A DNA stretch of 56,392 nucleotides from Sedimentisphaerales bacterium (GCA_016926155.1 JAFGPC010000023.1:1-56392), one strand, 5' to 3'. Numbered from the stretch's first letter, positions 9,733 through 47,167 are shown. Numbers and translations: made by a program. Notes: generated from the letters alone by a model not told the origin.

Positions 9733-10944
9733 ATGCTTTTATACTTTATTCGTGCTTTGTTTCTGTCCGTTATCATCGCATTTCTATTTGTCAGCATTAA
9801 CTATCATCAAAGCCGTTCCGAGCTTCCGCCGGATTCGGAAACCTACCTCCGGCTTGCTGCAGAAATGGAAAAAAAAGGCGACATGACAGGGGCCCTTGAA
9901 GCCACTCGAAAGGCGGTAGAGGTAAAAAAAGATAGTTCCAGCACAGAAGATTACATGGCCATTTTCATCATAGGCGTTTCCATTGCCGTCCTGGTAATCG
10001 CTGTCGAATGGCTCACACCCAAAAAGTCGCTCAATGCCCTGGCCGGCATTTTTTTCGGTATCCTTGTCGGTGCCCTGATTAGCTGGGCCCTGTCCCCGGT
10101 GATCGAAATGATCAATGACATCTGGAACCTGGGCTGGGCCGAAGACACCGTACGCATCTCCAAATGGCTCATGGCCATCTGCATCTGCTACCTGACCGTC
10201 AGTATGGTCATCCAGACCAAGGACGATGTTCGCTTTGTGATTCCTTACGTGGAATTTTCTCGCCAGACCAAGGGTTTGCGGCCTTTGGTACTGGACACTT
10301 CAGTTATCATTGACGGCCGGATTGCCGATATCGCCCAGACCCGCCTGTTCGACGCTCCCTTGATTGTGCCGCGATTTATCCTGAATGAGTTGCAATTAAT
10401 TGCCGACTCTTCCGACAAAATGAAACGCAACCGGGGCCGTCGCGGTCTGGATATCCTGAACAAACTCCAAACCAGCGCCATAGTGGAAGTGGAGGTCGAT
10501 GATACACCCCCGCCAGGCCTGGACGCCAAGGCCGAGGTCGATCACAAGCTGGTAGCTTTCACGAAAAATTGTGACGGGCGGCTGATTACGAATGACTACA
10601 ACCTCAATAAAGTCGCTCAACTTCGCGGTGTCGATGTAATCAACATCAACGACATGGCCAACGCCTTAAAAACGGTCGTTCTGCCCGGTGAGACGATGCA
10701 GGTTCGTATTATCAAAGCCGGGGAGGAGCCCCGACAGGGGATCGGCTATCTGGATGACGGGACAATGGTCGTCGTTGAAGAAGGCCGCGAACAGATCGGC
10801 GCTACGATCCAGTTGACCGTTACCAGCGCCCTGCAAACCAGCGCAGGCAGAATGATTTTTGGTAAATTCGACAAAGGATCATCCTCCTCCAGAAATGGCG
10901 GCTCCTACCGAAATCGAAATCAGAACGACCGTTCCAACAGCTAA
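9733..10944 (+). CDS. YacL-like membrane protein with PIN and TRAM domains
   Basis: The product has 403 residues, with AAGGAGA upstream of ATG 9733. TM1 spans about residues 5-22. A soluble segment with one TPR-like helix pair follows (about 36-66), then three more TM segments (76-94, 103-122, 144-162). The PIN nuclease domain covers about 184-310, with the acidic set Asp188, Glu219, Asp270 and Asp288. A TRAM RNA-binding domain (about 322-385) and a basic, Ser/Asn-rich tail complete it. This PIN/TRAM architecture matches Bacillus YacL, a probable membrane-tethered ribonuclease. The TPR-like piece is not something I know from YacL. The stop codon overlaps that of the convergent epimerase gene. 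Confidence 0.88.
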   Translation: MLLYFIRALFLSVIIAFLFVSINYHQSRSELPPDSETYLRLAAEMEKKGDMTGALEATRKAVEVKKDSSSTEDYMAIFIIGVSIAVLVIAVEWLTPKKSLNALAGIFFGILVGALISWALSPVIEMINDIWNLGWAEDTVRISKWLMAICICYLTVSMVIQTKDDVRFVIPYVEFSRQTKGLRPLVLDTSVIIDGRIADIAQTRLFDAPLIVPRFILNELQLIADSSDKMKRNRGRRGLDILNKLQTSAIVEVEVDDTPPPGLDAKAEVDHKLVAFTKNCDGRLITNDYNLNKVAQLRGVDVININDMANALKTVVLPGETMQVRIIKAGEEPRQGIGYLDDGTMVVVEEGREQIGATIQLTVTSALQTSAGRMIFGKFDKGSSSSRNGGSYRNRNQNDRSNS

Positions 10945-12194
10945 ATCTGCCCCAGGAAAATCGGCTGGATATGCCTCTCAAAGAGGTTTTCGGTCACGTA
11001 TTCGGCAATAACCGCCTCGTGTTTTTCGAGGGCGCCGGTAAATCGCTGTCCCATTTCGGCGGCAATTTTATAGCTCAGGTGCAACATCTGTCGAAAATGC
11101 AGGTTGTATTTTTCGCAGGTCGGATTATGTCGCAGAGTCAGGGTAAAACCATCCCCGTTCCATTCGCGGACTTGTCCGGCTGTCGGCAGTTTGTTTTGAT
11201 CAATATCAATCACGGTCGAATAAGGACCACACAATTCTTCATATCTGCCCAAAGCTTGTTCATAGATATCTTTGGCAATAGCAAGACCGTCACCACCAAC
11301 TGAGGCTAGCCCAATCAACTCCTCCAGCCATGTAGTTCCGGCTGTCTTGAGATGAACACCCGCATCAAACCGTCGCAAGGCGTTATGGATCGGCCCGTAC
11401 AAACTGAATTTGTCACTACCTGAATGCACACTCAGCTTCAAATCCGTCGGTAATCCAAACTGCTCAACTGCAAATCGAATCACCGCGATATCTTCGTTGA
11501 ATTCCTTCGTGAATTGCTTCACATTTCCTACATAATCCACACCTTTGTTGAACCGGCCGGTAAATTTGGGAGCAATCGTCTGAATCGAAATTCCTTCATG
11601 GGCCAGAGCACACAGGATAAATAGCAATTCCATCGGATTCTGAGGCTCATTCGACTCATCAACACTCACTTCCGTGATAAAGTTGCCTTCCCCTTTACGG
11701 TCCGCAATATGTCGATAAATCTTACCAGCTTCCTGAACCGCCGGCAGAAATTTATTTCCAATGCGCCGAACGTCCTCCAAAGAAACCTGTAAGGATTCAT
11801 TGATTCCTTCGATCTTGATTTCTCCCACGTAGTTTTCGCAGGACCGCACAAACGCATCCAATTCCACTGGATCGGGAGCTTGTCCGATAGAGTCGGCAAC
11901 ATCCAGGGTAAAAAAATCACTGCTTTCAAGGAAACAATCCACAGTATTGAGGTTAATGTGGTCGGCATCTACAAAATACGGTCCATCCCACAATAGTTTT
12001 TTTACTGCTGCATCTGCCTCGGAACGAACTGTATCCGGGCTGGTTCCAATGATTGTATGTTCCCGATAGGATTTATTCCATACCGGTGTGATATTAATGC
12101 CCTGTCTGCGTGCTAGAAACAGTGCCGCAAGTTGCGCTTTCCCCTGATGGGCAAAGCGATCCCCTATTCCCATAGAATATTTACCCAGCTTCAC
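10941..12194 (-). CDS. uxaE: Tagaturonate epimerase (UxaE) family protein
   Basis: The product has 417 residues. Recognisable family blocks include FVDADHINLNTVD, KLSVHSGSDKFSLYGPIHNA and the segment GVHLKTAGTTWLEELIGLA. UxaE of Thermotoga interconverts D-tagaturonate and D-fructuronate, which lets galacturonate enter the glucuronate branch of hexuronate catabolism. It is the last gene of an ABC-importer operon, 24 bp after the permease, which suggests that the importer carries a hexuronate or related acid. No uronate isomerase, mannonate dehydratase or KDG kinase is present here, so the rest of the pathway must be elsewhere. Family assignment is from memory of conserved blocks; activity is inferred. 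Confidence 0.78.
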   Translation of the reverse strand: MKLGKYSMGIGDRFAHQGKAQLAALFLARRQGINITPVWNKSYREHTIIGTSPDTVRSEADAAVKKLLWDGPYFVDADHINLNTVDCFLESSDFFTLDVADSIGQAPDPVELDAFVRSCENYVGEIKIEGINESLQVSLEDVRRIGNKFLPAVQEAGKIYRHIADRKGEGNFITEVSVDESNEPQNPMELLFILCALAHEGISIQTIAPKFTGRFNKGVDYVGNVKQFTKEFNEDIAVIRFAVEQFGLPTDLKLSVHSGSDKFSLYGPIHNALRRFDAGVHLKTAGTTWLEELIGLASVGGDGLAIAKDIYEQALGRYEELCGPYSTVIDIDQNKLPTAGQVREWNGDGFTLTLRHNPTCEKYNLHFRQMLHLSYKIAAEMGQRFTGALEKHEAVIAEYVTENLFERHIQPIFLGQI

Positions 12195-12218: not shown

Positions 12219-13214
12219 CTATACCGTTCGACGATGCCGCAGTCGATCCAGGGTTACCGCCAGGATAATAATTCCGCCGGTTACGATCTCCTGCACCCAG
12301 TTATCCAGCTCCATTTTAGTACAGCCGTTGGAAACAATCGTCATAATCAAGGCTCCCACAAGTGATCCCAGAATCGAACCCTGCCCGCCGGAAAGGCTCG
12401 CCCCTCCGATGACGACCGCCGCAATAACGTCCAGTTCCATCCCCGTAGCCGTGGTTGGGTCCCCCATCGTCAGATAGGAAAATTGTAAGAGTCCCGCCAC
12501 CCCGGCAAGGGCGGCGGCCAGCATATAAATTCGAAGTTTTGTCCATTCAACATTGATCCCGCACAGACGCGCTGTCTGTTCATTGGAGCCAATGGCAAAG
12601 ATATGCCGACCGAATCGCGTGTACCGAAGCATCGCAGCGACCAGCACCGCCAGCAACAGCATCATCCATGCTCCCGGTGTCAAAAGCCAGATATGATCCG
12701 GACTAAGAGGGCGTAATAGCTCATTGAGAAATGTTCCAGGCGGATATACCATGGAATTATCGGCAAGCCCTTTGGCCGTGCCCCGTAACGAGCCCCACAT
12801 TCCCAGAGTGATAATAAAAGGGGCCAGTTTCAGCCGCGTGATTAACAGTCCGATCAAACAACCGCACAAAGCCGCTACAATAATCCCTCCCGTTGCCGCC
12901 CCCAAGGCTGGAATCCCTCCTCGCAACAGTAACGCAATCACAACCGTATGCAGAGCGATTGCCGAACCCACTGACAGATCGATCCCGCCGGAGATGATAA
13001 TCAGGGTCATTCCCAAAGCCGCTGTGCCCACCACCGCTGTCTGACGAAGAATCAATTCAAAATTGTTTAATCGTAAAAATTTCTGTGGTTCCAGAATCGA
13101 AAACAGAACCAGAACAAATAGTAAACCAATCAGCGGTCCCAATCGTGTTAGGAGATCACTCCAACCAAAACGGGAAGAAACGGGATTGGCCGAGTCAGAA
13201 GAAACAGTTGTCAT
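12219..13214 (-). CDS. Sugar ABC transporter permease, RbsC/MglC type
   Basis: The product has 331 residues with 8-10 hydrophobic segments. It carries the family block GGIDLSVGSAIALHTVV and the C-terminal GGASLSGGQGSILGSLVGA. This is the membrane-spanning subunit of a CUT2-type (ribose/galactose-like) importer. Its ATG overlaps the stop of the upstream ATPase by 4 bp, so the two are translationally coupled. A homodimer is expected because only one permease gene is present. The name rbsC would be misleading because the downstream epimerase points to a uronate-like cargo. Confidence 0.92.
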   Translation of the reverse strand: MTTVSSDSANPVSSRFGWSDLLTRLGPLIGLLFVLVLFSILEPQKFLRLNNFELILRQTAVVGTAALGMTLIIISGGIDLSVGSAIALHTVVIALLLRGGIPALGAATGGIIVAALCGCLIGLLITRLKLAPFIITLGMWGSLRGTAKGLADNSMVYPPGTFLNELLRPLSPDHIWLLTPGAWMMLLLAVLVAAMLRYTRFGRHIFAIGSNEQTARLCGINVEWTKLRIYMLAAALAGVAGLLQFSYLTMGDPTTATGMELDVIAAVVIGGASLSGGQGSILGSLVGALIMTIVSNGCTKMELDNWVQEIVTGGIIILAVTLDRLRHRRTV

Positions 13215-14737
13215 ACATTCTCTCCGGCGCCGGTAGCCTCCAGCATGATCTGATGTTCATCAATTTCCTCAACCGGTCGCGCCCGGGAAAGCACGCCACG
13301 GCACATCACAGCGATACGGTCACAAATCCCCATCAACTCAGGCAAGTAGCTGCTGACCACAATCACCGCCTTGCCTCGACAGGCCAGGTCGTTAATTACC
13401 TGATAAATCTGGGCCTTGGCCGCCACATCAATTCCCCGCGTGGGCTCATCCAGCAACAACACATCCACATCATGATACAACAGACGGGCAACGGCCACCT
13501 TTTGCTGATTGCCTCCGGACAAATCGCTTACCAATTGCCGTGGACTGCGGCATTTGATCCCCAGCCGATCGATCCATCGATTCGTCTGTTCATCCTGCCA
13601 ACGAGGTGTTAACAGAGCGGGCAAACGGGAAAGAGTCACGTTGTCTGCAATATTCAGAGATAACGCAAGTCCTTCCAGCTTACGGTCTTCGCTGACAATC
13701 CCCATTCCCTGCATCCAGCGGCGACTAGCAGAAGCTGGCCCTACATAGGCGCCAATCCGGATTTTCCCACTTTCAACCGGGGCTAAACCAAAAATGGTAC
13801 GAATCAGCTCTGTCCGTCCTGCTCCCACCAGACCGGCAATACCAAGAACCTCACCTTGATGCAACGTCAGGGATGCAGACCGCGGTTTTTCCGATCCGAC
13901 AAGATCCTGCACCTCCAGCACTGCCTGCCCGGGTTTTCGTGGTGAACGGGGATAAAGTTGCTCCACGGTTCGCCCCACCATCATCGCGATAATCTGACCT
14001 GTCGGCACTTCCGAAGTCACCCCTTGACCTACGCTGTGCCCATCCCGAAGCACCGTAAAACAGTCGCTGATTTCTTTTACCTCTTCCAGAAAATGTGAGA
14101 TATAGACAATCGCATGCCCCTTCGCCTTAAGATGCCTGACCAGATCGAACAGGTGCAGGGTGTCTTTTTTGGTTAAACTGCTCGTGGGCTCGTCTAGGAT
14201 CAGCACCCGACAACCGATAGCTACCGCACGGGCTATTTCCACCATTTGCTGTTCGGCAACCGACAACCGCATGACGGGAGCCTCCAGCGGAATATCCGGA
14301 CGCCCCAATTGCCCCATTGCCTCGGACGCTCGTTGTCGAATGGACGTCCAGTTCATAAAGGGACCAATCGTTGGCTCCATACCAAGAAGAATATTCTCCA
14401 TGACCGACAAATGACGGGCCAGGGACAATTCCTGATAAATCATGCCCACACCTGCTCGACGGGCATCCAGAGGATTACGAGGTTGATATGGCCTGCCATC
14501 CAGCCACATTTGCCCTTCATCGGCAGGATGGGCACCGGATAAAACCTTCATAAGCGTGCTTTTCCCGGCTCCGTTTTCCCCTACCAAAGCCAGCACTTGT
14601 CCCCCTCGAACGGCCAGATCAACCCCATCCAGTGCAATGGTCGCACCAAATCGCTTACAGATCTCCTTCATACGCAAGCGATAGTCTGACATTGCATCAA
14701 CCTTAGGAGATGAGGCGGTATCCGGCAGATCAACCAT
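13211..14737 (-). CDS. Sugar ABC transporter ATP-binding protein, tandem nucleotide-binding domains
   Basis: The product has 508 residues, the usual size of RbsA/MglA proteins with two ATPase halves. The first half has Walker A GENGAGKST, a signature region LSVAEQQMVEIARA and Walker B LILDEPT. The second has a degenerate Walker A (GLVGAGRTEL), signature LSGGNQQKVAVARLL and Walker B LLLDEPTRGID, the normal asymmetry for this family. AGGA sits 7 bp before ATG 14737, 2 bp after the binding-protein stop. It powers import together with the permease that follows. Confidence 0.93.
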   Translation of the reverse strand: MVDLPDTASSPKVDAMSDYRLRMKEICKRFGATIALDGVDLAVRGGQVLALVGENGAGKSTLMKVLSGAHPADEGQMWLDGRPYQPRNPLDARRAGVGMIYQELSLARHLSVMENILLGMEPTIGPFMNWTSIRQRASEAMGQLGRPDIPLEAPVMRLSVAEQQMVEIARAVAIGCRVLILDEPTSSLTKKDTLHLFDLVRHLKAKGHAIVYISHFLEEVKEISDCFTVLRDGHSVGQGVTSEVPTGQIIAMMVGRTVEQLYPRSPRKPGQAVLEVQDLVGSEKPRSASLTLHQGEVLGIAGLVGAGRTELIRTIFGLAPVESGKIRIGAYVGPASASRRWMQGMGIVSEDRKLEGLALSLNIADNVTLSRLPALLTPRWQDEQTNRWIDRLGIKCRSPRQLVSDLSGGNQQKVAVARLLYHDVDVLLLDEPTRGIDVAAKAQIYQVINDLACRGKAVIVVSSYLPELMGICDRIAVMCRGVLSRARPVEEIDEHQIMLEATGAGENV

Positions 14738-14739
14738 GT

Positions 14740-15705
14740 CTATTCCTGTCCCAGAAACTTCTTCATTTCCGGATCATTAAGATTCTCGGGAGTTACCAGA
14801 CGAACTCCTGTATCGACCACAGGCGGGACGGATTGGCCCTTCAGATGAGCAACGACTGTTTTGACGCCTTCATAGCCCATGCGTGTCGGATCTTGTGCTA
14901 CCAAAGCCTTAATGTGCCCCTGGCGAAGAGCCTCGACCAACGGAGGCGTTGCGTCAAATCCCACAAAGGTGGTTTTCCCGGCAAGACCATTATCCCGCAG
15001 CGCTCCCAGCATACCCAACGTGCTTGATTCGTTCGGACAAAATACTCCATCAGCCTCCTTGAGCTGGTCGATCAGTTTCATGGACTCATTTTTGGCCTCG
15101 CCTACAGTCGCTCCTCCATAACGATTATCTACCAGCATAGTAATGTCAGGTTTCTGCTTCATTACTTCCAAAAAACCTGCTTCTCGTTCCTCCGTGCTTG
15201 CCGAACCCACGGCATACCGTAGGAGGACGACTTTGCCCTTTTCGTTGAGCAGTTTGGCCAGTTGCTCGCCAGCCATTTGGCCACCCTTGCGATTATTGGT
15301 AGCCACAAAACTCACAAAATCCCTGCCTGGCTCCCCCCGTAAAGCAGAATCGAACACGACAACCGGAATATTCCGTTCCATCGCACTTTGTACGGGTCTG
15401 GCCAAAGCCTCAAAATCCAGAGGCGCCAGTACGATTCCATCGACTCCCTCAGCAATGAACTGTTCGACCAGCTTGATTTGATCGGCCCGGTCACTCTCTT
15501 TGAGGGGGCCTTTCCAGATAATATTAACATCCAGTTCTGCACCAGCTTTTTTAGCACCCGCTTCTACAGATTTCCAGAATACATGTGTCGTGCCTTTGGG
15601 AATAACCGCGATAGTAAGCTTTTTCGGCCCGGAAGGCTCCTCTTTACCACAGGAAAACAATCCTAATATCGCCCCAATACACGCCAGAACTGCCAGCTTC
15701 CGCAT
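14740..15705 (-). CDS. Sugar ABC transporter substrate-binding lipoprotein, RbsB type
   Basis: The product has 321 residues from ATG 15705, chosen because GAGGAAAGGG lies upstream and a lipoprotein signal follows directly (lipobox LFSC, lipidated Cys19). An in-frame start at 15753 would bury that signal. The body is a type-I periplasmic binding fold: TIAVIPKGTTHVFWKSVEAG, then EGVDGIVLAPLD, FDSALRG, and VFCPNESSTLGML. It captures the sugar outside the membrane and delivers it to the CUT2 importer encoded next. Ligand identity cannot be read directly; the UxaE-like gene in the operon suggests a hexuronate. Confidence 0.92.
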   Translation of the reverse strand: MRKLAVLACIGAILGLFSCGKEEPSGPKKLTIAVIPKGTTHVFWKSVEAGAKKAGAELDVNIIWKGPLKESDRADQIKLVEQFIAEGVDGIVLAPLDFEALARPVQSAMERNIPVVVFDSALRGEPGRDFVSFVATNNRKGGQMAGEQLAKLLNEKGKVVLLRYAVGSASTEEREAGFLEVMKQKPDITMLVDNRYGGATVGEAKNESMKLIDQLKEADGVFCPNESSTLGMLGALRDNGLAGKTTFVGFDATPPLVEALRQGHIKALVAQDPTRMGYEGVKTVVAHLKGQSVPPVVDTGVRLVTPENLNDPEMKKFLGQE

Positions 15706-15880
15706 GATTTTCCCTTTCCTCAAATAGCATGTCCGGTCAATTGTTTCAATCATTAGACCCTCTATGGCCCAGACTGTTGAAAAAGCGACCGTTTATTGTC
15801 CTTCAAGCGGGCATTTTGTAAAGGATTTTTTGAACTTCAGCATCTCCTGATGAGCCGGGAATGCACTTCCAAGAAAGTTT

Positions 15881-37234: not shown

Positions 37235-38335
37235 CTACCCTAAAAATTCCAGTACTGCTTGAACCACCGTATCTTTCATTTCATCGGTCAGTTCCGGATA
37301 GACCGGCAGGGCCAGCACTTCTTTGGTTGCTTTTTCCGATTCCGGGAAGTCACCTTCTTTGTATCTCAGCGAGGAAAAACATTCCTGCAGATGCATCGGC
37401 ACAGGATAATAAATCTCGCAGCCGATTTCCCTGCTGCGGAGATACTCTACCATCTCATCACGACGCGGCACGCGGATGACGTACTGATTATAGATCGACT
37501 CGCAATCCTCACGCACAAATGGCGTCTGGACCGGTGTGTTCTTGAACTTTTTATTGTAATAAGCCGCATTCTTTCGCCGCGCCTTGGACCAGGCCTTCAG
37601 ATGCGGCAGCTTGACCAGCAGTGTTGCCGCCTGAATCGGATCCAGACGGAAATTGCCACCCACATATGTATGATAGTACTTTGGCTCCATGCCGTGATTA
37701 CGCATGATAAACAAGCGATGATACAGACTCTCATCGTTGGTCACGACCATTCCGCCGTCGCCGATTCCACCCAGATTCTTGCTGGGAAAGAAGCTGAAAC
37801 AGCCGCAGGTTCCGATGGAACCGGCTTTCTTGTCTTTGTAGGTGCTGGTGATCGACTGGGCGGCATCCTCAATAACAGCCAGGCTGTTTCGCCCTGCGAC
37901 CGCCATAATCGGGTCCATATCGGCCATCTGTCCGAACAGATGCACCGGCATAATCGCCTTGGTCTTCTTGGTAATCGCCGGTTCGATCAGTTCCGGATTG
38001 AGATTGAACGTCTTGGGATCGATATCCACAAACACTGGTTTGGCCCCCACCCGCCAGATGCTCCCTACCGTGGCAAAAAAGGTAAACGGAGTCGTGATTA
38101 CTTCATCCCCCGACTTGATCTCCAGGCTCATCAGGCTGTTGAGAAGAGCGTCGGTCCCGCTGGAGACACCCACGGCATACTTACAGCCGGATGCCTTAGC
38201 GACAGCCTCTTCCAACTCTTCCACCTTCGGACCGCCGATGCAACGCTGCGTATCCAGCACTTCGTTAACCTGCGCCAGCACTTCTTCCTTGATCGTCGCA
38301 TACTGCGATATTAAATCCAATAACGGCACTTTCAT
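37235..38335 (-). CDS. wbpE: DegT/DnrJ/EryC1 sugar aminotransferase, WbpE-like
   Basis: The product has 366 residues, the standard length. PLP-enzyme landmarks are GVSSGTDALLNSLMSLEI, the Asp in VIEDAAQSITS and the PLP-binding Lys in FSFFPSKNLGGIGDGGM. The substrate region is NFRLDPIQAATLLVKL. The gene lies next to WbpD- and WbpB-like genes, so it probably makes UDP-GlcNAc(3NH2)A, the 3-amino intermediate of UDP-2,3-diacetamido-2,3-dideoxy-glucuronate, from the 3-keto sugar. An AGGAG lies 12 bp upstream. Other DegT enzymes share the fold, so substrate assignment rests on neighbours. Confidence 0.85.
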   Translation of the reverse strand: MKVPLLDLISQYATIKEEVLAQVNEVLDTQRCIGGPKVEELEEAVAKASGCKYAVGVSSGTDALLNSLMSLEIKSGDEVITTPFTFFATVGSIWRVGAKPVFVDIDPKTFNLNPELIEPAITKKTKAIMPVHLFGQMADMDPIMAVAGRNSLAVIEDAAQSITSTYKDKKAGSIGTCGCFSFFPSKNLGGIGDGGMVVTNDESLYHRLFIMRNHGMEPKYYHTYVGGNFRLDPIQAATLLVKLPHLKAWSKARRKNAAYYNKKFKNTPVQTPFVREDCESIYNQYVIRVPRRDEMVEYLRSREIGCEIYYPVPMHLQECFSSLRYKEGDFPESEKATKEVLALPVYPELTDEMKDTVVQAVLEFLG

Positions 38336-38383
38336 GAATTCCGTTTCTCCTGCATTTTCATCCCTTCTCGAATCTGAGAGAGA

Positions 38384-39055
38384 TTATTGATCTTTATATT
38401 CATCGTACGTCTTTGTTCCGACGGCCTTATCGGGCGGCAGCGGCTGCTCCTCATCCAGATCCAGGCACTGCACCATGCCCGGCTCTACCTCCTTGTACAG
38501 ATAGCCGCTTTCCGGGCACCGCATAATACCGTCGGAATCCGGCCTGGGCAAGATAATCCCATGTCGACTCATCCATCCTTTTTGCCGGGCCGGCACGCCC
38601 GCCATCAGTGCATAGTCGGGCACATCCTTAGACACAACCGCCCCGGCTCCGACAAACGCATATCGCCCGATCGTAATCCCGCACACAATTGTCGCATTGG
38701 CCCCGATCGTCGCCCCACGGCGGATCAATGTGGTTTCATAGATCCCCCTCCTAACCACCTGGGCCCGTGGGTTGGTAACATTGGTCAGCACGCAACTCGG
38801 TCCCAGGAATACATCATCCTCAATCGTAATCCCGGCATACACCGAGACATTGTTTTGAATCTTGACTCGGCTGCCGATCACCGCCCCGCCGGCGACAAAT
38901 ACATTCTGGCCCAGATTGCACTGTGAGCCGATTATTGCTCCCTCACAAACATGGCAAAAATGCCATATCTTTGTGTCGGCCCCAATCCTGCATGGTAAAT
39001 CCACACGGGCCGTCGGATGCACAAAATAATTCGTTTTGCCCTGCGACTTGGTCAT
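38384..39055 (-). CDS. wbpD: UDP-sugar 3-N-acetyltransferase, WbpD-like
   Basis: The product has 223 residues. It has the left-handed beta-helix repeats and a close match to WbpD from memory: FVHPTARVDLPCRIGADTKI, then CNLGQNVFVAGGAVIGSRVK and IQNNVSVYAGITIEDDVFLG. The catalytic His region is WHFCHV. A C-terminal 45-residue tail contains two Cys (MRCPESGYLYKE and QCLDLDEE), unlike the short WbpD end. It should acetylate the 3-amine made by the WbpE-like enzyme. It starts 5 bp after the WbpB-like gene and ends 48 bp before wbpE. Confidence 0.88.
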   Translation of the reverse strand: MTKSQGKTNYFVHPTARVDLPCRIGADTKIWHFCHVCEGAIIGSQCNLGQNVFVAGGAVIGSRVKIQNNVSVYAGITIEDDVFLGPSCVLTNVTNPRAQVVRRGIYETTLIRRGATIGANATIVCGITIGRYAFVGAGAVVSKDVPDYALMAGVPARQKGWMSRHGIILPRPDSDGIMRCPESGYLYKEVEPGMVQCLDLDEEQPLPPDKAVGTKTYDEYKDQ

Positions 39056-39060
39056 TTACT

Positions 39061-41998
<2,938 letters not shown>

Positions 41999-42024
41999 GA
42001 ATCTATTCCATTTCTCCCCGCCGC

Positions 42025-42999
42025 TTAAACTGACTCTTGCCTCGAAGTGGCCGCCTGATCCGATCGAAGCCACTGTACAAACCGCTTTAGCCCCTCTGAA
42101 ATTTCAGTCTGCGGATTATAACCCAGTTCCCGAACCGCCTTGCTCACATCGGCATACGTCTGGTTCACATCTCCCGGCTGCATCGGACGGCGATCCAGAA
42201 TCGCCTTCTTGCCCAGAGCCGTTTCGATCTGACCAATCAACTCATCCAGCCGCACCGGTCGTGATTCACCCAGGTTATAAATGTTATATCCTTCACATTT
42301 CTCTATAGCTGCCACAACACCATCGATGATATCGTCGATATATGTAAAATCCCGCCGCATGGAACCATCGCCAAACACAGGGATAGGCTTGCCCTTCTCA
42401 ATCAAGCGGGCAAACTTGTGAATCGCCAGGTCCGGCCGTTGTCGGGGTCCGTAGACCGTAAAAAAGCGAAGACAGGTCATTCCGATACCATACAGATAGC
42501 TGTAGGTATAACACAGCAGTTCCCCCGCCTTTTTGGTGGCGGCATAGGGACTGATCGGAAAATCCACATTGTCCGACTCATGGAAGGGGACCTTCTTGTT
42601 ATTACCATACACACTGGAACTGGATGCAAAGATGAATTTGGGAATGCGGTGTTTTTTAGCTGCTTCGAGCAGAACCACGGTACCGTTGATATTGACATCC
42701 TGATACCCGACCGGATCCTCAATGGATGGCCGTACCCCCGCCTTGGCTGCCAGATGTATAATACAATCAAAACCGCCGTCAGCCATAATCGAAGCGACGG
42801 CATGTTCATCCCGAATATCCCCCTGCATCAGTTCGAACTGACTGCTCTTGATAAGATCGGTAATGTTGTTCCATTTCACATCGCTGCTGTAAAACGGGTC
42901 AAAATTGTCCAGCCCGATCACCTTCCATCCATTACAGACAAGACGCTTAGATAGATGTGAACCGATAAATCCTGCCGCTCCTGTTACCAATGCCTTCAA
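42025..42999 (-). CDS. UDP-glucuronate 4-epimerase-like NAD-dependent epimerase
   Basis: The product has 324 residues. The SDR landmarks are [25 protein letters not shown] and the catalytic [29 protein letters not shown] and [19 protein letters not shown] are typical of the CapI/LspL/GAE branch, which interconverts UDP-GlcA and UDP-GalA, rather than of GalE. The block [20 protein letters not shown] also fits. It lies immediately downstream of a GalU-like enzyme and a glucuronokinase-like kinase, which would supply UDP-GlcA. The gap to GalU is 54 bp. A UDP-GlcNAcA epimerase role is possible but less likely. Confidence 0.85.
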
Positions 43000-43053
43000 T
43001 CATTTCTCCCATTATATCGTAAGTTTCACATTACAAAGGATAACATCTTTCAA

Positions 43054-43920
43054 TCAGAGTCGTTTGGCCAGATCTCGAATGAACTTCTTCATCTCCCGGG
43101 ACATGTCCGGCCGCTTGAGGGCAAATTCAATATTCGTGCGAACAAATCCTTCTTTATTACCGATATCACAACGGCGTCCTTTGAGTTTTTTACCGTACAT
43201 TGCCCGCTCACGGACCATCAGCCGCATGGCATCGGTAATCTGGATCTCACCGCCCTTGCCTGGGCGGGTCTTTTCAAGATAATCGAAAATACCCGGTGTA
43301 AAAATGTAGCGGCTTGCAATGACCAAATTGGAAGGTGCTTTATCAACAGCAGGTTTTTCAACAAAATCATTTACAAGATACAGACCCGAACGTATCTCTT
43401 CCCCACTGATGACACCATAACGACTGACACGCTGACGGTCCACTTCTTCCAGCAAGACAACCGGATCCTGATAACGCTGATACACATTGATCAACTGTTG
43501 AATCGCCGGGATTTTGGATTCAATGACCGTATCTCCGAGCAAAACCGCGAACGGTTCATCATTCACATGATGACGGGCACAATAAATCGCATCCCCCAAT
43601 CCCTTCATCTCCTTCTGCCAGACGAAATGAATGTCCGCCAATTCTGAAATATGGCGCAGGTTTTTCAGTTCCTGTTTTCGTCCTTTTTCCTGGAGTTGAG
43701 CTTCCAGTTGAAAGCTCCGGTCGAAGTGTTCCTCGATAGCCCGCTTGCCTTTTCCGATGATCATCAGGATATCGGTAATCCCCGCCGCCACGGCTTCTTC
43801 CACAACATACTGGATGACCGGCGTATCAACAATCGGCAGCATCTCTTTGGGCTGCGATTTTGTAGCGGGCAGAAAACGCGTGCCGAAACCCGCCGCAGGA
43901 ATCACCGCTTTTCGTATCAT
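43054..43920 (-). CDS. galU: UTP-sugar-1-phosphate uridylyltransferase, GalU family
   Basis: The product has 288 residues, the normal GalU length. It has the nucleotidyltransferase signature AAGFGTRFLPATKSQPKEML, PVIQYVVEEAVAAGITDI and GLGDAIYCARHHVNDEPFA. The metal site is LLGDTVIESK and the C-terminal part has VEKPAV and GEIQITDAM. GalU normally makes UDP-glucose; its coupling here to a glucuronokinase-like gene (4-bp overlap) raises the possibility that it or a relative uses GlcA-1-phosphate. The RRCDIGNKEGFV region differs slightly from the usual KRYDCG(S/N)K in the C-terminal part. Canonical UDP-glucose activity remains the simplest call. Confidence 0.9.
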   Translation of the reverse strand: MIRKAVIPAAGFGTRFLPATKSQPKEMLPIVDTPVIQYVVEEAVAAGITDILMIIGKGKRAIEEHFDRSFQLEAQLQEKGRKQELKNLRHISELADIHFVWQKEMKGLGDAIYCARHHVNDEPFAVLLGDTVIESKIPAIQQLINVYQRYQDPVVLLEEVDRQRVSRYGVISGEEIRSGLYLVNDFVEKPAVDKAPSNLVIASRYIFTPGIFDYLEKTRPGKGGEIQITDAMRLMVRERAMYGKKLKGRRCDIGNKEGFVRTNIEFALKRPDMSREMKKFIRDLAKRL

Positions 43921-44936
43921 AGTACATTCCCTTGAGTTGGTTTGGCGATCTTCGGCTTGATCACAATGATGTCCAGTTTTCCCAATTCCTTGCGCAGGGT
44001 CTGATACATCCTCTCATCTTTATACATCCCGACAATCGCCCCTCCGGACCCGGTGAATTTCGCGCTGGCTCCCACGGAACGTGCGGTTTCGACCATCTGA
44101 AGGTTGGCCTCGCTGATTCGATAGATTTTCATCCGTCGGTCAAAGTTGGCGTTGAGCATTCCACCCAATTTCTCTGTTTGCTTTTCTTCCAGGCAACGCC
44201 GGGCTTTCATCGTCAGATTGGCCCAGAACTTCATTGCCGCATGGATCATTTTATCGCCCAGATCAAATCGCGCACGAATATTGTTATGAAACACTTCCGT
44301 GGGTTCGCTGAGGTCATCCCGATACGCCACATACAATTTGGGCAACAAAGCGGGATTCATTTCCTCATAACGCCCGTGTCCCTGAGTTTCCATCAGTTTC
44401 TGATCGAAGTCCATAAAAACCAGGCCTTCGTATACCTGAATTACACGATCCTGTAAACCCGCAGAAATATATAATTCATCCTTTTCCGCTGAGAGAACCA
44501 GACTGGCTTGCATCGGCTTGGGAATCGCCACACCATAAAAAGTCATTAAAGCACGCAGGCAGGCCGTGATGATCGCACTGGATCCGGCCAGGCCTACACC
44601 ATGAGGGATATCCGAAGAATATCGAATCGTGAAGTTCTTGTTATGCAGAACGATTTGATTCTGCCGACAGTAATCGTAGAATCGTCTGACGGTCGCCTTC
44701 AGCAGACGGATACCCCCATAATACCCATGCAATTCGACATCGCGGACCAATTGTTGAATACTCCCAAACACGCTCTGATCCTTTTGGCTGGGCATGATTT
44801 CCAATTCGGGACTTTCATACAATATCACTTCTGCTGCAAAGTTGGTAAATGCAAATGATATCGTCTTACCATAATATCCATCGGAAGGATTACCGATCAG
44901 GCCGACACGTGGATATGCTTTCGTGCGAATTATCAT
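43917..44936 (-). CDS. GHMP kinase resembling plant glucuronokinase
   Basis: The product has 339 residues. The GHMP motif 2 is PHGVGLAGSSA (111-121) and motif 3 is KFTGSGGA (293-300). Beyond these it matches plant glucuronokinase closely in memory: GNPSDGYYGKTIS (15-27), GYYGGIRLLKA (71-81), the AEKDELYISAGLQDRVIQVY segment (150-169), then GLVFMDFD and LGDKMI. Plant enzymes convert D-glucuronate plus ATP to glucuronate-1-phosphate, and a uridylyltransferase then makes UDP-GlcA. The gene sits directly before a GalU-like gene with a 4-bp overlap, the pair that such a salvage route needs. Galacturonate, arabinose or another sugar remain possible substrates. Confidence 0.85.
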   Translation of the reverse strand: MIIRTKAYPRVGLIGNPSDGYYGKTISFAFTNFAAEVILYESPELEIMPSQKDQSVFGSIQQLVRDVELHGYYGGIRLLKATVRRFYDYCRQNQIVLHNKNFTIRYSSDIPHGVGLAGSSAIITACLRALMTFYGVAIPKPMQASLVLSAEKDELYISAGLQDRVIQVYEGLVFMDFDQKLMETQGHGRYEEMNPALLPKLYVAYRDDLSEPTEVFHNNIRARFDLGDKMIHAAMKFWANLTMKARRCLEEKQTEKLGGMLNANFDRRMKIYRISEANLQMVETARSVGASAKFTGSGGAIVGMYKDERMYQTLRKELGKLDIIVIKPKIAKPTQGNVL

Positions 44937-46075
44937 AGATTGTCTCTGTCCTTTTGAAAACGAAGACGCTCGATACTATGGCTGCAACGAGGGGCCAGAA
45001 TGGTGTTAATCATGGCAAAATAATTCTCGTCCGGTACATAGTCCGGAATACTGTTACCTGAGCCGAGAGCATAACCGCCCCGCCCTTTGGTTCGGTCCAG
45101 CATGGCTCGACAGCGAATCTGAATTTCCTCGGGTTTTGAGCGACAGAGAAAATCAAGGTCAATCCCTCCAAGAATCGCAATACGATTCCCCCATCGCTCA
45201 TAGGCCTCTTCAACAGGCTCGACTGTATCCTCAAACGAATGCTTGGCGTCGTACTTCATTGTCTCGATTATATCATTCATGACCTGTTCCATATAACCGC
45301 ACGAATGAAGGATCGCCGGTTTGTCTGCCACATGAATTACCTCCACAATCCGTCGATGCCAGGGGAAAACATACCGCCGAAGATCGTCAGGAGCAAGCAT
45401 TGTCTGGGTTTTAAAACCCCAGTCGTCATTGACGATTAAGGCCCCAACCGATTCATGGACAGCACAAATCTCATAATAACGAAGTAACGAAGCGCCGATC
45501 GAATCGAAAATACATTTGACCAGGTCCGGATCGTCCGCCAGCATCAGGCAAAGACAATCAAACCCAACTAACAACATGGCGTTTTCCAGAACGCCCCCCG
45601 GGCCGTAAACAATCAGTTTCATACCCTCCGGCAGGAGTCCCAGGGCCTGATCGAGACGCGAATAATCAAATGTATCGGCGTTCGGCCAGTTATAATTATC
45701 AAAGCTTTCTCGGTCTCGGATTGCGGAGCCGGCATTGAGCGATATTGTAGCCTGCTGGTCAATCTGACCGGCTGGAAATGTCATATCCGAACCATAACAA
45801 GTCACGTAATCGTATCCCGCATTGGCAAAGGCTGAAATGACTAACGGATTTACACTTCCCCACAGAATTCCCCCAACCTCGGTAACAATATCCGGATTGG
45901 CAAGCTTTTGGCAAAGCGGTTCGTTCAGGAAGAACTCAAAAAGGGTTTCCCTTTCCGGTTCTCTCCGGCCTAGCACGGTAAGGAGATTATCAAATTCAGG
46001 AGTAACGTTCAAAATAGATTCGTTTCCAAAGAGACGAAATGCATTGTAAAAGGGTATATTTGGTAAACATTGCAA
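44933..46075 (-). CDS. Uroporphyrinogen-decarboxylase-family protein (non-haem, methyltransferase-like)
   Basis: The product has 380 residues as drawn from TTG 46075, limited by an in-frame stop just upstream. No in-frame ATG lies near the family start, and TTG 46012 (just before TPEFDNLLTVLGRREPER) is an alternative. The URO-D fold is recognisable: LLTVLGRREPERETLFEFFL, DDPDLVKCIFDSIG, KPAILHSCGYM with the His-x-Cys pair seen in MtaA/CmuA-like corrinoid enzymes, and LGGIDLDFLCRSKPEEI. Planctomycetes encode many such paralogues of unknown function. It overlaps the GHMP kinase by 4 bp, but its link to sugar metabolism is obscure. Confidence 0.75.
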   Translation of the reverse strand: MQCLPNIPFYNAFRLFGNESILNVTPEFDNLLTVLGRREPERETLFEFFLNEPLCQKLANPDIVTEVGGILWGSVNPLVISAFANAGYDYVTCYGSDMTFPAGQIDQQATISLNAGSAIRDRESFDNYNWPNADTFDYSRLDQALGLLPEGMKLIVYGPGGVLENAMLLVGFDCLCLMLADDPDLVKCIFDSIGASLLRYYEICAVHESVGALIVNDDWGFKTQTMLAPDDLRRYVFPWHRRIVEVIHVADKPAILHSCGYMEQVMNDIIETMKYDAKHSFEDTVEPVEEAYERWGNRIAILGGIDLDFLCRSKPEEIQIRCRAMLDRTKGRGGYALGSGNSIPDYVPDENYFAMINTILAPRCSHSIERLRFQKDRDNL

Positions 46076-46354: not shown

Positions 46355-47167
46355 TTACTTTCTATACGTACAAAATGTTTTATCGGTTTCCCAAATCGTT
46401 ATCTCTTCAAGGGAGGCGTTTGGAAATTTCCCTTCGAGACAACGCCAGGCAAATGCCGCCAGATTTTCCACACTGGGAATCGTCTCTAGGAATTCGGTTA
46501 AATCAACATTAAGGTTCTTATGATCTACCAGGTTCATAAATTCTTCATTTACAACCCTTTGAAATGATGCAATGCTCCATTCGTGTCCCTGGGCCGGACA
46601 GCAAACTTTGACCTCCAGAATGTAGTTATGACCATGGCCGGCCGGATTTGCACACTTCCCAAAGAATTCCAAGTTCTTGTCTTTACTGTACTTATCATTC
46701 CATAGCTTGTGGGTGGCTGCAAATTCAAATTTTTCAGAAAAAAACATCACAGAAGGATCCTCCGGGATAATTTGAAGTGTCCGAAAAGGATTTAATCGAA
46801 GTTTCAGTGAGCTAATCTGCAGTTCATGCAGATATGTTTCCAAAGCTGCATGTGCCTGATGAAGAATTTGATTTACTTCTTCCAGGCCAATGGGCTTTAA
46901 GTAGGTATAACTACTTTGTATTGTCTCTATAAACAATGGCACTACTACTTTATGCACTGCTTTATCGATCTCGATGACATTGATCACAAAGCCAGTCTCC
47001 GGATTAAGGGGTCCTGTCACTTCTACCCACAAAGCCAGGAAAAGACACAAACCCTCCCCGCAGGGACGAGAAGCATATGCGTTATATCCGTCCGAAATCT
47101 CTTCTTGAAAAGGACTTACAGAAAAACGAACCTCACGGGATAATCGATACATCTCGCTAACGCTCAC
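46355..47167 (-). CDS. Tandem 6-pyruvoyl-tetrahydropterin synthase (PTPS/QueD) family protein
   Basis: The product has 270 residues, about twice the usual length. The C-terminal T-fold (about 143-270) is a canonical PTPS: zinc ligands His153, His178 and His180, catalytic Cys172 in [13 protein letters not shown], the VDHKNLN His/Asp region and the substrate Glu in IWETD. The N-terminal T-fold (about 6-130) keeps the shape ([20 protein letters not shown]) but lacks the GHGHNY histidines, so it is probably structural. It starts at GTG 47167, overlapping the folE stop by 4 bp, so folE supplies its dihydroneopterin triphosphate. The product may be a pterin cofactor or the queuosine precursor 6-carboxy-tetrahydropterin. 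The 279-bp gap to the URO-D-like gene downstream shows nothing. Confidence 0.85.

Follow-up and report, generated by a model that had tools for sequence, protein, structure and literature searches.

A glucuronokinase-like kinase paired with a GalU-type enzyme: a candidate glucuronate salvage operon in Planctomycetota and related bacteria

Plants make UDP-glucuronate (UDP-GlcA) from free glucuronate (GlcA) by way of GlcA-1-phosphate (GlcA-1-P), using a glucuronokinase and a UDP-sugar pyrophosphorylase (USP) in the myo-inositol oxygenation pathway. A stretch of 56,392 nucleotides from a Sedimentisphaerales bacterium (JAFGPC010000023.1:1-56392; hereafter the window) encodes a GHMP kinase, a GalU-type uridylyltransferase, and a nucleotide-sugar epimerase in series, and raises the question of whether a bacterial operon could follow the same route. 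The window is contig C67 of assembly G000 (5.0 Mb, 95.9% complete), whose nearest named relatives are Phycisphaerae/Phycisphaerales of the Planctomycetota. The three ORFs are co-directional on the minus strand (Table 1); the kinase stop and GalU start overlap by 4 bp (ATGA), confirming the overlap described in the initial annotation, while 54 bp separate GalU from the epimerase, and gmd and fcl are the next genes downstream.

Table 1. Features of the window discussed in the text, with the evidence for each assignment
Feature	Position	Strand	Evidence or remark
Glucuronokinase-like GHMP kinase, 339 aa	43917-44936	minus	ORF, profile, structure prediction, residue comparison
GalU-type sugar-1-phosphate uridylyltransferase, kinase-linked subfamily, 288 aa	43054-43920	minus	ORF, TIGR01099
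UDP-glucuronate 4-epimerase-type SDR enzyme, 324 aa	42025-42999	minus	ORF, PDB matches, motifs
URO-D/MtaA-like protein	44933-46075	minus	Models; no conserved neighbour of the kinase
GDP-mannose 4,6-dehydratase gmd, polysaccharide precursor gene downstream	40985-42073	minus	ORF and model; likelier start is a later ATG near 41998
GDP-L-fucose synthase-like fcl	40026-40988	minus	Score below equivalog cut-off
Sugar ABC importer of the ribose type (permease, double ATPase, and periplasmic binding protein), which may import uronate	12219-15753	minus	
UxaE-like tagaturonate epimerase, uronate catabolism	10941-12194	minus	PF16257, 166 bits

At its start, the kinase ORF also overlaps by 4 bp the stop of a URO-D-family gene that is absent from the initial annotation. 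In none of the other loci examined is URO-D next to the kinase, and one relative (L016) has the order pepA-folE-ptps-kinase with URO-D missing; the gene therefore looks like an insertion in the window's lineage, and its missing conservation rules it out as a component of the system. The overlap, together with the uronate catabolic gene and importer on the same contig, would accord with an operon serving uronate catabolism or a URO-D-linked process rather than polysaccharide synthesis; however, with URO-D not beside the kinase elsewhere and with nucleotide-sugar genes downstream, we give this reading scarcely any weight. Further along the window (46355-47167) is a 6-pyruvoyl-tetrahydropterin synthase-like protein with ~140 additional N-terminal residues, beside folE and a leucyl aminopeptidase-like gene, a block that is syntenic in L016. 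At 37235-40071, an oxidoreductase, a hexapeptide acetyltransferase, and an aminotransferase in series form a WlbA/B/E-like set, which may convert UDP-GlcNAcA into a 3-acetamido uronic acid.

Curated models label the kinase only as "GHMP kinase": it scores 45 bits against PF00288, reaches no equivalog, and falls below the HddA model NF049969 (42.9 bits; cut-off 600). As a single sequence, its best PDB matches are weak (mevalonate kinase, E 2e-8). The kinase aligns over 306 aa, at 45% identity, with a plant sequence that we take to be Arabidopsis glucuronokinase 1 (AtGlcAK1). As a check on this reference sequence, the 194 aligned positions at which it differs from the window kinase were compared with other bacterial members; its residue was present among them at 136/194 positions, as compared with 80 +/- 6 after shuffling, and the reference sequence is therefore a genuine homologue rather than an altered version of the window kinase. 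A family profile of 55 bacterial relatives gives the putative AtGlcAK1 sequence 367 bits, as compared with 92 bits for the best PDB GHMP kinase (heptose kinase 3k85). In the kinase tree, the heptose kinases are separate and the plant row falls inside the main bacterial group, with the deep forks weakly supported.

The general GHMP motifs are present (GLxGSS loop, catalytic Asp, and GSGG loop), with S119, E151, D163, and G298 invariant. The protein additionally contains the blocks GNPSDGYYGKTIS, GYYGGIRLLKA, and SAGLQDRVIQVY, which the initial annotation had associated with plant glucuronokinase and which are indeed not generic GHMP motifs. All 55 bacterial relatives have N16-P17, R164 (which adjoins the catalytic-type D163), H217, R268, R286, and S297, and so does the plant reference sequence, whereas heptose kinase 3k85 and mevalonate kinase 1kkh have other residues at these positions. 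Full-length similarity and these family-wide invariant residues rule out a chance likeness of motifs. A grouping with other sugar kinases would, by the initial annotation, have refuted its reading; profile scores instead place the kinase with glucuronokinase, and a heptose, mevalonate, or galactokinase identity is rejected on its far lower scores.

Structure prediction from 55 diverse sequences returned a GHMP fold at a pLDDT of 91 (with eight similar sequences, pLDDT was only 40). The nearest solved folds are galactokinases, the heptokinase WcbL, and mevalonate kinases, and archaeal galactokinases are top in Foldseek by E-value, as expected from the common fold. This ranking, along with the tendency of GHMP kinases to switch substrate during evolution, could be read as favoring a kinase for another sugar (galactose, galacturonate, L-iduronate, or arabinose), with the trio making the matching UDP-sugar. 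Such a reading seems to us quite improbable: the full-length likeness to glucuronokinase is far above that to any PDB kinase, the family-specific R164, H217, R268, and R286 are retained, the kinase's neighbours include ugd and a uronate-type epimerase, and plant galacturonokinase is reported to be very diverse from glucuronokinase in sequence (PMC3938481). Judged by its sequence, the kinase is a member of the glucuronokinase family, and it is very probably a glucuronokinase itself.

In a single scan across bacterial and archaeal genomes, at least 551 relatives of the kinase were confirmed, the best 80 of which are from Planctomycetota, Verrucomicrobiota, Lentisphaerota, and Kiritimatiellota, with a few from Fibrobacterota and Bacteroidota. 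Gene neighbourhoods were compared at 97 kinase loci, 93 with enough flanking DNA, and GalU neighbours were found by translated search, as length-based ORF picking masks GalU by antisense ORFs in GC-rich genomes. By hand count, a same-strand GalU lies within 1 kb of the kinase in 75 of the 93 loci, a sample in which near relatives are over-represented because it was ranked by likeness to the window kinase. The order is reversed in L105-L108, where GalU is upstream of the kinase, and the epimerase is the next gene in most planctomycete loci. In seven loci (L019, L023, L027, L039, L041, L042, and L043), a canonical ugd is directly upstream, giving the order ugd-kinase-galU-epimerase and thereby tying the kinase to UDP-GlcA. 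Far from being a one-off cassette, the kinase-GalU pair is widespread among PVC bacteria.

Other arrangements occur as well. In L060, L054, and L081 (Kiritimatiellae/Lentisphaerae), where no GalU adjoins the kinase, a hexokinase-like gene lies upstream of it. In L115-L118, whose kinases are distant relatives (32-39% to the window kinase), another nucleotidyltransferase of 250 aa, unlike GalU, stands in GalU's place; this pair is possibly the bacterial counterpart of the zebrafish fusion protein discussed below.

The window GalU passes the TIGR01099 cut-off (369 bits; cut-off 326.8), and a search of the genome gave no other close GalU. Relative to YngB, VWQ replaces VRQ and GLGDA replaces GLGHA in about nine of ten linked GalUs; the reference GalU chains of Burkholderia and H. 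pylori have VRQ and GLGHA, like YngB. Nearly all 71 linked GalUs additionally have LGD[TS] (or LAD[TS]) following the metal-binding-type Asp and, close to the C-terminus, an Asn, a signature also found in the reversed-order group. Close homologues of the window GalU were absent from 30 kinase-free genomes drawn from the window's own family, order, and class, three of which contain distant homologues (32-37% identity), and GalU was present in 8/8 kinase-bearing relatives; kinase and GalU therefore come and go together in this lineage. This co-occurrence would fit a dedicated GlcA-1-P uridylyltransferase, though it is no proof of one.

The TIGR01099 score and the lack of a second close GalU would also suit a genuine glucuronokinase whose linked GalU makes mainly UDP-glucose, with GlcA-1-P used weakly or by an enzyme elsewhere. 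Several characterised UDP-glucose pyrophosphorylases have a strong preference for Glc-1-P, with <10% activity on GlcA-1-P (PMC12203929), and in the seven relatives with ugd in the cluster, UDP-glucose would be the substrate of ugd. However, the kinase-free relatives that have ugd contain no close GalU, which is thus not their UDP-glucose enzyme, and the linked GalUs have substitutions in common at positions conserved in the reference GalUs compared; we consider a UDP-glucose-forming partner unlikely.

The initial annotation placed a CapI/GAE-type epimerase after GalU, and its type is upheld by the closest PDB matches, 5u4q (297 bits) and BcUGAepi 6zl6 (219 bits), as compared with about 133 bits for the E. 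coli-type GalE 1lrk; the score is also below the galE model cut-off. BcUGAepi is the proven UDP-GlcA 4-epimerase of B. cereus, in which Thr126-Ser127-Ser128 bind the carboxylate (PMC7984243). The runs SSSSVYG and FFTVYG of the window enzyme align with these residues and with Thr178, respectively; Thr126 is Ser here, and the decarboxylase-type Glu is absent from the third place of the T/S-S-S run. Motif and score argue against GalE or dTDP-glucose dehydratase, despite the dehydratase label of 5u4q in the PDB. The title of that entry is dTDP-glucose 4,6-dehydratase, and its aligned sequence carries the epimerase SSSSVYG run; because of this run, 5u4q is probably a UDP-uronate epimerase.

UDP-glucose dehydrogenase (ugd), which the initial annotation reported as absent, is missing in its canonical form from the whole assembly as well: the motif G[FY]GGSC[FL]PKD has 0 matches in the 95.9% complete G000, and a search with PF03721 and PF00984 returned two relevant proteins. 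One (L001) has the motif GGHCIPIDP and is nearest to UDP-HexNAc dehydrogenases; the other (L002/L137; C97:99050-100012; 547 aa) has GGYCLPKD, and its nearest solved relative is an NDP-GalNAcA dehydrogenase. By these affinities, both were rejected as canonical ugd. The GGYCLPKD protein, also present in three other ugd-less kinase genomes (L132, L138, and L139), could be a hidden source of uronic acid.

The kinase and ugd are anti-correlated more broadly, by Fisher tests that ignore phylogeny and shared ancestry and a motif search that can miss an unusual ugd. Among 294 Planctomycetota, the motif is missing from 13/17 genomes whose kinase match is strong (E below 1e-100) vs 56/277 others (odds ratio 12.8, p=2.7e-6); among those at least 90% complete, the counts are 6/9 vs 16/146 (p 3e-4). 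Among 194 Verrucomicrobiota, it is missing from 53/57 kinase genomes vs 99/137 others (odds ratio 5.1, p=0.001), and 28 of another 43 kinase genomes, most of these 43 from classes other than that of the window, also lack it. In family f34, three kinase genomes of one genus have no ugd and the kinase-free genomes have it; in family f1, four kinase genomes have none and nearly all kinase-free genomes do. From these two patterns, the anti-correlation seems to have arisen more than once. Where dehydrogenase motifs were inspected, in 16 ugd-negative Planctomycetota, most were of the HexNAc type; two genomes gave no match to PF00984, and two dehydrogenase proteins show no motif. Among the remainder, the G171 protein is GDP-mannose-dehydrogenase-like (GFAFGGSCLPKD), and that of G013, with a GGPCFPRD variant, could be an unusual ugd.

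The gene pairing, the kinase-linked GalU subfamily, the upstream ugd, and the ugd anti-correlation point to uronate salvage. In the route that we infer, as to substrates, direction of flux, and glucuronate source, the kinase would use ATP to phosphorylate C1 of free D-glucuronate, yielding GlcA-1-P; the linked GalU-subfamily enzyme would convert this with UTP to UDP-GlcA; the epimerase would turn part of the UDP-GlcA into UDP-galacturonate (UDP-GalA); and both would feed the polysaccharide of the neighbouring gmd/fcl/glycosyltransferase/flippase genes. This route would replace UDP-glucose dehydrogenase in G000 and in many related genomes. Sequence and comparative genomics both lend support to the proposal, made in the initial annotation, that the trio could make UDP-GlcA and UDP-GalA without that enzyme, and we think it likely that the whole route, from free glucuronate to polysaccharide, works as predicted.

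The cell would take up free uronate from its surroundings, and the sugar ABC importer beside the tagaturonate epimerase 30 kb away is a plausible entry route. The uronate-type importer noted there in the initial annotation proved to be a ribose-type system, and its uptake of uronate is plausible because it and the UxaE-like epimerase lie together on the same contig (10941-15753). A search of the genome for MIOX gave no match; control genomes were likewise without a match, so this is no proof of absence.

The enzyme families and the pathway logic are already known from plants and fish. Zebrafish glucuronokinase accepts D-glucuronate and none of eight other sugars, with ATP the sole nucleotide used among those tested; a bacterial-type nucleotidyltransferase of 260 aa is fused to it, and the pyrophosphorylase domain is nearly inactive in vitro (PMC3938481). 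The authors report the same nucleotidyltransferase domain on its own in bacteria and archaea, and homologues of the kinase in plants and lower animals (PMC3938481). At least one profile of a gut metagenome uses the orthology label K16190 (PMC10687571), and a database-level bacterial prediction therefore already exists. The papers found place glucuronokinase in plants and some animals only; our literature searches, with subscription journals mostly outside their scope and thus no proof of absence, returned no paper on a bacterial glucuronokinase. One mention of an Aeromonas "UDP-GlcA pyrophosphorylase" was set aside, the A being a footnote letter and not glucuronate. Within the literature searched, the bacterial operon form, the GalU-type partner signature, and the ugd trade-off across two phyla appear undescribed.

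If the proposed route is correct, the widespread bacterial kinase and its GalU-type partner would constitute a second bacterial route to UDP-GlcA, by which PVC bacteria without the usual UDP-glucose dehydrogenase may assemble acidic polysaccharides out of sugar acids that they have salvaged. Predictions of metabolism in PVC bacteria would change, and bacterial enzymes would be offered for UDP-GlcA production; in particular, the linked GalUs are a testable source of the strong pyrophosphorylase activity that the zebrafish study could not find. The finding would also bear on the origin of eukaryotic glucuronokinase. It is possible, if still short of probable, that many PVC lineages gave up UDP-glucose dehydrogenase and instead scavenge uronic acids as the starting material for UDP-GlcA and UDP-GalA, using GalUs of a subfamily adapted to GlcA-1-P; plants and animals may then have acquired their glucuronokinase from this bacterial pool.

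Of the known systems, Arabidopsis GlcAK1 (EC 2.7.1.43) is homologous to the window kinase over its full length (about 45%), and the two-step logic from GlcA through GlcA-1-P to UDP-GlcA is alike. However, the Arabidopsis partner is USP, while the bacterial partner is a GalU-type enzyme with its gene paired to that of the kinase; additionally, plants keep ugd, which is often missing in bacteria with the kinase. Zebrafish DrGKUP joins glucuronokinase to a bacterial-type nucleotidyltransferase, much as the bacterial kinase is linked to one, but as a fusion; the bacterial genes are separate and adjacent, with mostly GalU-type partners, and a 250-aa partner, which may or may not be akin to that of DrGKUP, occurs solely in the distant members L115-L118. 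The HddA heptose-7-phosphate kinases have the GHMP fold in common with the window kinase, 3k85 being the best PDB sequence relative of its profile, yet differ from it at the glucuronokinase family-specific positions. Bacterial clusters of Ugd with CapI/GAE have the same end products, UDP-GlcA and UDP-GalA, and seven relatives have ugd within the cluster itself; the uronate there arises by an oxidation step, whereas the window operon would salvage it ready-made.
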